From assembly GCF_002796605.1 (NCBI RefSeq), contig NZ_CP024923.1, positions 1,426,001 through 1,490,000 on the forward strand: DNA of 64,000 nt, read 5' to 3'. The notes beneath the pieces are model-generated. The model had not been told where the DNA came from. It ran no database searches and was given only the letters and a program-made list of their open reading frames with translations. The DNA comes from Sphingomonas psychrotolerans (GTDB taxonomy: Bacteria > Pseudomonadota > Alphaproteobacteria > Sphingomonadales > Sphingomonadaceae). A program made the position numbers and the translations under genes. This document shows positions 39,572 through 42,514 of this stretch, one piece after another (position 1 is the stretch's first letter; every line of letters starts with the position of its first letter).

Positions 39572-39683
39572 CGTGAATTCCTGTCGTATTGATGGTGATC
39601 GGGCGGGCGCAGCCGGTTTTCCGGGCGCCCGCGTCATGCGAAAACGAAAAAAGGGCGGCCGCCTCAGCGCGCCGCACACAGCC

Positions 39684-39974
39684 TCACTCGAGCCGACGCT
39701 CGAAGGGCAGATAGGTTGCGCGAAGCGGTGTGCTTTCGCTCTGCGGCCACGCGCCATCCCGCGCCTCGATGCGCCGGGGCACCGAAACCGCGGGGATCGT
39801 CCGCTGCGAGCGGCTCACCGCCGCCTCTGCCGTCTGCGCCGCCTGGACCAATGCCACGCCCTGCACCTGACGCACCACGCGATCGCCCGAACCGTTGCCG
39901 GTCAGGCTCGCGAGCAGCGCAGTGAGGAGAAGCAGCAGGTTCAATTCGGCTCTCTCGGCAAGAGGCAGCGACAT
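39684..39974 (-). CDS. Small protein upstream of secA with an N-terminal hydrophobic segment
   Basis: The 96-residue product has one hydrophobic stretch near the start ([16 protein letters not shown], about 11-26), which could be a signal anchor or signal peptide. A soluble tail ending YLPFERRLE follows. It is followed 112 bases later by secA on the same strand. That spacer contains AGGCGGCCGCCCTTTTTT, a possible weak terminator. The position recalls secretion-monitor genes such as secM, but no known arrest motif is seen. I do not recognise the family. Confidence 0.6.
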
Positions 39975-40135
39975 AGTGTGCCGGGTGCCATTCGTCTAAT
40001 CAAAATGCTCCGCGGGTCCGAGGGCCGCGCTGCGGCGGTTTCCACCGCGCCGTGGACTCGTTCGGTTGACTGATTGACTCGATCGCGCATTTTCGAGCGG
40101 AAGCGGCGGGTTTGCGCCTGGTTTGGGTCGGCGAA

Positions 40136-40302
40136 GCGACAGTCACGCGCCAAAGACGCCCCATGCACGCGACAGGCGCGCCACACACCGGAGCGACATG
40201 CACGCGACACCTTCGCGACACCCACGCTGCCGGATCGCGCCGATCACGCGCCCGCCTGGCGACACACGCGCCACGCCTGCGCGACATCCGCGCAACACCG
40301 CG
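40136..40302. repeat. Degenerate 11-bp tandem repeat array (about 15 units)
   Basis: From 40136 the sequence falls into consecutive 11-base units with consensus GCGACANNCAC, for example GCGACAGTCAC, GCGACATGCAC, GCGACACCTTC and GCGACACCCAC. GCGACA starts at 40136, 40169, 40193, 40204, 40215, 40259 and 40281, and all steps are multiples of 11 except one two-base insertion. Intervening units keep the phase with substitutions (GCGCCAAAGAC, GCCACGCCTGC). Because 11 is not a multiple of three, it is unlikely to be coding; 11 bp places every unit on the same face of the helix. The rest of the 39975-40396 spacer shows nothing I can assign. Confidence 0.8.
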
Positions 40303-40396
40303 TAATGAAAGAAGATTCTGCCGCTCGTCCATGGAGAAACGAAAGCAGATCAAATCCTACATTGCCAGTCTTTCAGGTATCGAAGCCAGTCGCTGA

Positions 40397-41233
40397 TTAT
40401 CGCAGCTTCGCATCATTTCCGTCGAAATCAGCTGCGTCCGGTGCAAGGGCTTCGAACTGCACCGCGATCCGGCCGCTACGCAGCGCTTCGGAGGCGTCCT
40501 TGCTCTCCGAATAGGGGTCGAAGATCATCCGACAAGGGTTATCGAGCTGATCACCTTGGATGCTCTCCACGCATTGCTGCGCTCTGCCGTCCAAGCTTAT
40601 CACGAAACGCATGTCCGTCCGCGCGTATTTTGCTTCCGGCATGGTCGGCAATGCCGGAGACTTCCCGTCAAACTGGCCCGCCCCTCGCAACCGCACCTTG
40701 TATCGCCCGCGCGCGTCCGCCTTTCCGGCACGAAGCTGGCCGGGTGTCATCGCGAAGGCGTATTTGCAGAATTGCGCGACCGCCAGCTGGTTTCCTTCGC
40801 CAGAACTCCGGCACGACAGCAACGCGCCTTCTGAACTATAGACCGCCTGTGCAGTAGCTGCCCAATTCGTCGGCTCACGGACCGGCACCTTCGGTAGAGC
40901 CCAGGTGAATTGCGTTTCGAAGGTCGCCGGGATCGGAGCGCCATCGGCATTCGTCGCCGGCTTGAAGCGCGCATTTTTACGCATCAGATCACACGTCGCC
41001 TTGTCCAGCACGTCGAAGCCGGTCGAAAGCACTATCTCGCAATCAGAGACACAACCTCTCGCATCGACTTCGAGGCGAAAACGTGCTGCGCCTTGCAGGC
41101 CAAGCGCTTCTGCTTTTCGAGGGTAGTCGTTATCGGTCACCCAAGGCCGATTGCCGCGGGGTTGGCAAAGTCCGGTCGAATTTGCGGGAAGCTGCATAAC
41201 GGCTGCGGCCACCCATATCGTCGCCAAAATCAT
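40397..41233 (-). CDS. Secreted protein with TonB C-terminal domain
   Basis: The 278-residue protein has a short hydrophobic N-terminus (ILATIWVAAAVMQLP, a probable signal peptide). A TonB C-terminal-type domain follows (about 30-110): YPRKAEALGLQGAARFRLEVDARGCVSDCEIVLSTGFDVLD. Four cysteines in the domain and more in the C-terminal half may form disulfides. The second half (about 120-278) is not recognised. No proline-rich linker is present, so it is not a normal energy-transducing TonB. It is divergent from argJ. Confidence 0.75.
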   Translation of the reverse strand: MILATIWVAAAVMQLPANSTGLCQPRGNRPWVTDNDYPRKAEALGLQGAARFRLEVDARGCVSDCEIVLSTGFDVLDKATCDLMRKNARFKPATNADGAPIPATFETQFTWALPKVPVREPTNWAATAQAVYSSEGALLSCRSSGEGNQLAVAQFCKYAFAMTPGQLRAGKADARGRYKVRLRGAGQFDGKSPALPTMPEAKYARTDMRFVISLDGRAQQCVESIQGDQLDNPCRMIFDPYSESKDASEALRSGRIAVQFEALAPDAADFDGNDAKLR

Positions 41234-41287: not shown

Positions 41288-42514
41288 ATGTCCACCGAAC
41301 GCTCTCCGCTCGCACTCCGCTTCCCCGATCTGCCGGCCATTCCCGGCGTCACGCCGCGCGTCGCCCGGGCACGCTACAAGAATTGGGACCGCTGCGACCT
41401 GACCTTCGTCGCGCTGGACGAGAGCACCAGCGTCGCCGGGGTGCTGACCAACAGCAAATGCCCCTCGCCCGAAGTCGAATGGTGCCGCAAGGCGCTGGTA
41501 CTCGGACGCGCCCGTGCGCTGGTGGTCAATGCCGGCAATTCGAACGCCTTCACCGGCAATCGCGGCCGCGCCGCGGTCGAGGCGATCGCCGCGCGTGCCG
41601 CCGCGCATCTCGGCTGCGAGCCTTCCGACGTGTTCGTGGCCTCGACCGGAGTGATCGGCGTGCCCTTGCCGATCGACAAGGCCGAAGCCGGGCTCGATGC
41701 CGCCTTCACTGCCGCGCCTGCTAGCTGGGAAGGCGCCGCCGCGACGATCATGACCACCGACACCTTCGCCAAGGCGGCGGTGACCAGCGCAGTGGTCGAC
41801 GGCCGGACGGTCAATCTCGTCGGGATCATCAAGGGCTCGGGGATGATCGCGCCCGACATGGCGACGATGCTCGGCTTCGTCTTCACCGACGCCGCGGTCG
41901 CGCCCGAATTCCTGCAGGCGGCGCTGAACGATGCCAATCGCAAGAGCTTCTCCTGCATCACCGTCGACGGCGACACCTCGACCAGCGACACGATCCTAGC
42001 CTTCGCCACTGGCAAGGCGGGCAATGCCCCGCTCGAGAGTGACGACGACGCGGGTGCCGATGCCTTCCGCGCCGCGCTCGCCGATCTCTGCCACCAGCTC
42101 GCCTTGCTCGTCGTGCGCGACGGCGAAGGCGCGCAGAAATTGATCGAAATCACCGTCGAAGGCGCCGAGAGCGACCGCAGCGCGCACCGCATCGCGATGT
42201 CGATCGCCAATTCGCCGCTGGTGAAGACCGCGATCGCCGGCGAGGACGCCAATTGGGGCCGGATCGTCATGGCGGTCGGCAAGGCCGGCGAGCCCGCCGA
42301 GCGCGACAAGCTCGCGATCCGCTTCGGCACCACCCAGGTGGCGCAAAGCGGTCTCGCCGTCGAAGGCTATGACGAAGCGCCCGTCGCCGCGCACCTCAAA
42401 GGACGCGAGATCGAGATCGGCGTCGATCTCGGCCTCGGCGACGGCCGCGCCACGGTGTGGACCTGCGATCTCACCCACGGCTATATCTCGATCAACGCCG
42501 ATTACCGGAGCTGA
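41288..42514 (+). CDS. argJ: Bifunctional glutamate N-acetyltransferase/amino-acid acetyltransferase
   Basis: ArgJ transfers acetyl from N-acetylornithine to glutamate in the arginine cycle, and the bifunctional form also uses acetyl-CoA. The 408-residue precursor self-cleaves before a threonine; here the site is APDMATMLGF with Thr193. GSGMIAPDMATML, TVDGDTSTSDT and the final HGYISINADYRS match the family. It is divergent from the TonB-domain gene by 54 bases. Confidence 0.95.
   Translation: MSTERSPLALRFPDLPAIPGVTPRVARARYKNWDRCDLTFVALDESTSVAGVLTNSKCPSPEVEWCRKALVLGRARALVVNAGNSNAFTGNRGRAAVEAIAARAAAHLGCEPSDVFVASTGVIGVPLPIDKAEAGLDAAFTAAPASWEGAAATIMTTDTFAKAAVTSAVVDGRTVNLVGIIKGSGMIAPDMATMLGFVFTDAAVAPEFLQAALNDANRKSFSCITVDGDTSTSDTILAFATGKAGNAPLESDDDAGADAFRAALADLCHQLALLVVRDGEGAQKLIEITVEGAESDRSAHRIAMSIANSPLVKTAIAGEDANWGRIVMAVGKAGEPAERDKLAIRFGTTQVAQSGLAVEGYDEAPVAAHLKGREIEIGVDLGLGDGRATVWTCDLTHGYISINADYRS

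Follow-up and report, generated by a model that had tools for sequence, protein, structure and literature searches.

A helically phased 11-bp repeat array beside secA in Sphingomonas psychrotolerans and its candidate helix-turn-helix partner

A gap between genes next to secA, in the 64,000-nucleotide stretch of the Sphingomonas psychrotolerans genome analysed here (the window), contains short cores repeated at a period of 11 bp. The locus raises the questions of whether this phasing exceeds chance and of what might read it. The array occupies 40136..40302 of the plus strand, with matching units traceable back to 40103. A recount of the seven exact GCGACA cores (40136, 40169, 40193, 40204, 40215, 40259 and 40281) returned the spacings of 33, 24, 11, 11, 44 and 22 given in an earlier note on this DNA. 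The identity at lags of 11, 22 and 33 over 40136-40302 is 0.536, versus a mean of 0.323 (sd 0.023) and a maximum of 0.423 in 2000 dinucleotide-preserving shuffles of the same stretch; a chance origin of the phasing was thus rejected. When periods 8 to 15 were compared, 11 alone stood out, the next value being 0.352 at 13. The array is also the top lag-11/22/33 signal of the whole window (0.545 at the best frame, ~10 SD above the mean), and the second-best place reaches 0.366. A unit model, whose training arrays included this one, scored it 102.8 versus at most 23.3 in 500 shuffles. Orthologous arrays in two relatives (G523 and G519) complete the basis for the assignment. The consensus of 436 units from 37 arrays (the near-duplicate L111 was dropped from the set) is GCG(A/c/g)C(A/g)NNN(A/G)C. 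The NNCAC tail of the unit proposed earlier is thus general only in part.

The gap is flanked by a TonB_C-domain ORF (40397-41233, minus strand) and by a small ORF (39684-39974, minus strand) plus secA, also on the minus strand. Its earlier placement between secA and argJ was correct in that the array is intergenic, but argJ is not the direct neighbour, since it starts at 41288, beyond the far side of the TonB_C-domain ORF. A coding repeat was rejected: the coding score chose no ORF through the array, and 11 bp keeps no frame. A search for plasmid relatives of 39900-40450 returned none.

The array recurs in other sphingomonad genomes and at many loci besides secA. The pattern searched was GCGACA three times at 11-bp spacing with up to 2 mismatches; it has 18 matches in the S. 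psychrotolerans genome and 0 in the backward control. Seven other loci of this genome hold arrays of 10 to 16 units (L096-L101 and L406), and weaker arrays occur too (L407). In a family sample of 298 genomes, more than 4 matches were found only in this genome and in G245. Among 295 genomes of the genus, 25 (this one included) have at least 8 matches, with up to 129 in G319, and the distribution over the genus is patchy.

Comparison of the copies places the array at the core of a short dispersed element. The element has recognisable ends and here extends over about 40050-40368. The left end (40050..40101, plus strand, left limit approximate) consists of the short direct repeats GGTTGACT (40064-40071) and GATTGACT (40072-40079) followed by a GC-TTTT-GC stretch. 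This arrangement recurs in other copies of the same genome and in those of relatives, and homology to the element-less relative G436 stops at about 40056. The right end (40339..40368, minus strand; AAGCAGATCAAATCCTACATTGCCAG on the plus strand) was assigned from a sharp conservation edge across 162 copies, from exact copies and from the end of homology to G523 and G519. Exact AAATCCTACATT, the right end, occurs 36 times in this genome (control 0) and at least once in 96 of the 295 genomes. The fuller right end is present in at least 120 stretches, and the 80 listed are mostly from Sphingomonas with a few from Sphingobium, Sphingorhabdus and relatives. Placed in one orientation, the copies have in common the left direct repeats, the GC-TTTT-GC stretch, the array and the right end AAGCAGNCGAAATCCTACATTGCAAG; the left repeats and the right end vary in several other species. 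Many right-end copies of this genome are short and have no array. Both kinds have spread, because near-identical pairs of each occupy different loci, L278/L291 of this genome (97% identical, no array) and L110/L111 of G245 (98% identical, array present).

Several features of mobile DNA were looked for. Terminal inverted repeats, as in MITEs, were suspected in L205 and dropped, the inverted right-end motif that served as the test being found at the left of just 3 of 147 fragments. A Y1 transposase (PF01797) was rejected as the mover, given the lack of a match in the S. psychrotolerans genome; two of eight genomes searched have one. No empty site sufficiently close to reveal a target-site duplication was found. 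In several pairs of orthologous copies the alignment breaks off at the right end, and a recombination hotspot there was considered. It was dropped, as the right-hand genes match where homology resumes; the break reflects either divergence between the genes or additional DNA in one of the two copies. Some copies have peculiarities of their own. Compared with a relative, L208 and L176 have additional DNA immediately next to the right end (about 2 kb and 1.3 kb), and L205 (Sphingomonas sp. Root241) has two right ends in one orientation, 217 bp apart. The array-less copies L264, L277, L284 and L290 of the S. psychrotolerans genome hold CCAACC..GGTTGG-type palindromes and inverted TTGACTC/GAGTCAA motifs.

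In relatives, some copies follow the order right end - HTH-A - array, where HTH-A is a tiny helix-turn-helix (HTH) gene of about 90-115 aa first met in copies of G245, G319, G300 and G359. A search of the 295 genomes with the G359 protein yielded a separate group of 30 genomes, in which the weakest match listed has 86 bits; the next group starts from 60.7. The array begins 1-38 bp after the HTH-A stop codon, on the same side, in all 30, with scores of 33-113 versus 7-14 for the upstream stretch and up to 29 for the opposite strand. In two other genera the same holds at 5/5 loci (1-52 bp after the stop, scores 28-61, shuffle maxima up to 13), one of whose HTH-A genes has an in-frame TGA. By comparison, at the 52 paralogue loci measured (29 from the own clade, including one gene that was counted twice, and 23 from other genera; one further locus was too short) no array reaches four units. 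Two of them contain 3 units, with scores of 19.7 and 21.0, above their own shuffles. HTH-A is present in 21 of the 25 genomes with at least 8 array matches versus 9 of the 270 others (p=2e-21, relatedness uncorrected).

The right end of the gene-bearing copies is the region before HTH-A and perhaps serves as its promoter. The HTH-A start codon lies 37 bp from the right end in 14/14 gene-bearing copies examined; of the remaining members of the 30, 15 have no right end by the pattern used and one weak match was left out. The window copy retains an ATG at 40330..40332 (minus strand) where HTH-A begins in gene-bearing copies, and the reading frame here runs on into the array. Since this ATG is 36 bp from the right end, near the 37 bp of gene-bearing copies, the window copy likely once carried HTH-A and lost it, keeping the start codon. 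An ATG at 36-38 bp was found in 8 of 23 gene-less loci scanned, the window copy included, and most of those without it are of a class in which the right end is followed by a hairpin.

Four array genomes have no HTH-A, namely G324, G493, G523 and the S. psychrotolerans genome itself (G000); a search for the gene in the last two found it in neither, though their arrays are kept. This genome has eight weaker members of the HTH family (best 61.5 bits), one directly beside a right end (L405) and two more by coordinates; no array follows any of those measured. Judged by coordinates, the right end at 1035946 adjoins a tandem pair of family members (G000:C1:1035281-1035875). The HTH-A protein is a predicted HTH with a long fourth helix. 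Foldseek gave no significant fold match, the PDB sequence and NCBIfam searches gave no usable one, and no initiator family is among the matches listed.

Orthologous loci allow unit positions to be compared. At secA, G523 (88% identity) and G519 (82%) retain the element with its array, and G436 (91%) and G415 (90%) lack the element. Over 14 aligned units, the S. psychrotolerans array and that of G523 differ 0, 0, 3, 4, 0, 2, 4, 3, 6, 4 and 3 times at phases 1 to 11. Phases 1, 2 and 5, picked after the counts were known, differ in 0/42 places and the others in 29/112 (p=4e-5), one S. psychrotolerans unit being joined over an insertion; with phases 1, 2, 3 and 5 the figures are 3/56 and 26/98 (p=0.001). 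Core phases thus undergo fewer changes in these sequences. Across the 37 arrays and 436 units, neighbouring spacers agree at 1.429 of 4 positions versus 1.425 ± 0.040 in shuffled order, and 5/399 neighbouring units are identical, so there is no sign that the units were recently duplicated in tandem. Because the unit-picking model favours the core, the figures for the core are inflated, a bias that does not reach the spacer comparison. The arrays of L101 in this genome and L409 in G415, both behind one and the same methyltransferase gene, are in register over 11 units with a spacer identity of 0.78. An element also lies upstream of uvrB in S. psychrotolerans, G339, G358, G415 and G378 (L098, L344, L330, L408 and L136). 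An array was scored in the first four, the left repeats vary between species and, of four pairs compared, only S. psychrotolerans and G339 have spacers above the 95% level of 590 unrelated pairs.

The best explanation, which we regard as somewhat probable, is that an HTH protein binds one array unit per DNA turn, in an element made up of a core array, ends and an optional HTH-A gene. HTH-A or a family member would occupy one unit per helical turn, and several protomers would be aligned along a single face of the DNA or would wrap it, an arrangement proposed for small terminases. The gene-less copies would be scattered candidate binding sites, mainly between convergent genes, as REP sequences are to the RAYT gene. 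This reading is suggested by the phasing beyond shuffles, by spacers without neighbour likeness, by the unchanged phases 1, 2 and 5, by the arrays directly behind HTH-A and not behind its paralogues, by the co-occurrence over genomes, by the constant 37-bp distance, by the predicted HTH with its long fourth helix and by the spacing of about one DNA turn between the HTHs of small-terminase rings (PMC4737164). Against binding by HTH-A itself stand the four genomes that keep arrays without it and the 9 HTH-A genomes with fewer than 8 array matches. The same applies to unit position 4, where A has a frequency of 0.42 in S. psychrotolerans and 0.16 in G415 versus 0.53-0.87 in five HTH-A genomes, to the Foldseek result and to a terminase likeness that is weak and common to array-less paralogues. 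The iteron-like, protein-binding array suggested at the outset therefore remains the best reading, separated from the role for secA or argJ proposed with it.

REP/REPIN sequences with their RAYT gene are the closest parallel in layout. According to an excerpt of PMC3116915, that gene occurs in low copy number next to a repeat, and the repeat is also scattered over the chromosome at many intergenic sites without the gene. The present element likewise has many gene-less intergenic copies beside few gene-bearing ones, but it differs in its 11-bp phased array, in the small HTH protein linked to it and in the lack of a Y1 transposase in the S. psychrotolerans genome; it thus resembles a system of gene and dispersed sites without a known transposase. 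Topic and string searches of the literature found no paper on this element, which is not proof of absence. In about thirty genomes, helically phased arrays are here linked to a single family of small HTH genes, and a candidate binding partner is therefore testable at once. The arrays, with their varied spacers, also form a natural set for measuring once-per-turn DNA reading by HTH proteins.

Use of the phased arrays as architectural or topological sites between convergent genes, by a host nucleoid protein or gyrase and with HTH-A as a mere passenger, is unlikely, though the placement of the copies favours it. BIMEs are a known precedent for such use. Among 121 right-end copies placed, 118 have both flanks, of which 72 are convergent, 32 tandem and 14 divergent, with genes called by a simple coding score rather than a gene finder; background gaps of 100-1500 bp at the same named loci are convergent in 22/237 (p=1e-24). 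The core phases kept in a clade without HTH-A also favour such a site. However, the placement count takes in all right-end copies, many of them array-less, the adjacency of arrays is specific to HTH-A and not shared by its paralogues, and the distribution over the genus is patchy.

An old minisatellite inside a mobile element, its units derived from tandem duplication and functionless, is improbable. Orthologous arrays do differ in unit number, and identical units make up some of the arrays in viral contigs, but neighbouring units are no more alike than in shuffled order and the changes avoid phases 1, 2 and 5. BrickBuilt, a MITE of Porphyromonas gingivalis, is similar in being intergenic with a leader, a tandem array and a tail, and different in its 23-nt repeats, as given in an excerpt of PMC4596501. 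The element described here has spacers without a signal of tandem duplication, and an HTH gene in some copies. BOX elements have a modular A-Bn-C build, and we know of no 11-bp phasing or linked HTH gene in them. Like the present element they are dispersed small interspersed repeats, and the pneumococcal BOX is parasitic in the judgement of its authors (excerpt of PMC3049150).

Packaging or replication signals of a phage or phage satellite, in which the arrays are pac- or ori-like or act as decoys and HTH-A is the matching specificity factor, form a doubtful account. In its favour, the HTH-A family (53/53 members) has matches to a terminase-small-subunit PHROG, all at E 0.01 or better and the best at 2.3e-9, although paralogues match too. 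Excerpts of PMC4737164 describe small-terminase rings with HTHs about one DNA turn apart and DNA binding that is weak and largely sequence-independent. HTH-A has a weak sequence likeness to these proteins, along with its predicted HTH plus fourth helix. Small terminases are encoded in phage genomes, but the array element is chromosomal, its right end was not found in viral contigs, and these contain a single, weak HTH-A relative (47% identity). No phage genes were seen among the neighbours inspected, in an unsystematic look.

The same core and period do occur in phages. Three cores plus GCG at 11 bp were found in 65 viral contigs, versus 11 for a scrambled core, 28 for period 10 and 88 for the codon-compatible period 12. 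In 21 of the 65, no ORF running through the array reaches 100 aa. The other contigs represent 29 distinct ORFs, 20 of which encode proteins for replication initiation, helicase loading or the primosome (E 1e-9 or better). Initiators are also present among the control ORFs (7 scrambled and 20 of period 10), the commonest family accounting for 5/27, the union being uncounted. Phages thus have iteron-like arrays with a GCGACA core, though not exclusively at a period of 11 bp, as period-10 arrays occur in them as well. In the viral contigs L480-L544, 11-bp phased GCGACA arrays lie inside DnaD-like, O-like and primosomal initiator genes, with varied spacers in several. These phage iterons share cores, period and varied spacers with the chromosomal arrays; the examples inspected have 4-8 units within the initiator gene, whereas the chromosomal arrays are longer, intergenic and behind another protein family. 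Phased direct repeats, as in replication iterons, are present, and the linked gene is HTH-A, without an initiator family listed for it. The shared core and period raise the question of whether chromosomal elements and phages share or contest a binding mode. A more speculative proposal, to which we give little credence, is that the elements are minimal phage parasites or decoys, with the array as packaging or replication signal and, in some copies, a terminase-like HTH gene of their own; less than 1 kilobase would then carry both a site and its specificity factor.

A role at the RNA level, for instance as a terminator or Rho site of the genes on either side, is very unlikely. The units are C-rich and placed near gene ends, and the period described for Rho sites is near theirs. 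The orientation to tandem genes is however mixed (13 and 19), which speaks for DNA rather than RNA, and Rfam gave no match at E 1 in window 39600-40800. Across eight further loci Rfam gave three matches, all in L111; one is a tRNA and the other two fall short of the gathering score. An S4-Bacteroidia match (E 0.099), which is one of these two and lies on the left end of the L111 element, was taken as chance.

A regulatory site for secA or its neighbours only, the flanking-gene role put forward earlier, is hardly credible: the array does lie upstream of the small ORF and secA, but the same module is found at many other loci, and G436 and G415, whose DNA here is no less similar than that of G523, do not have it at this place. 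Between secA and argJ, the gene at 40397-41233 of the window varies among relatives that are ~80-91% identical in secA; the S. psychrotolerans copy has a TonB_C domain.
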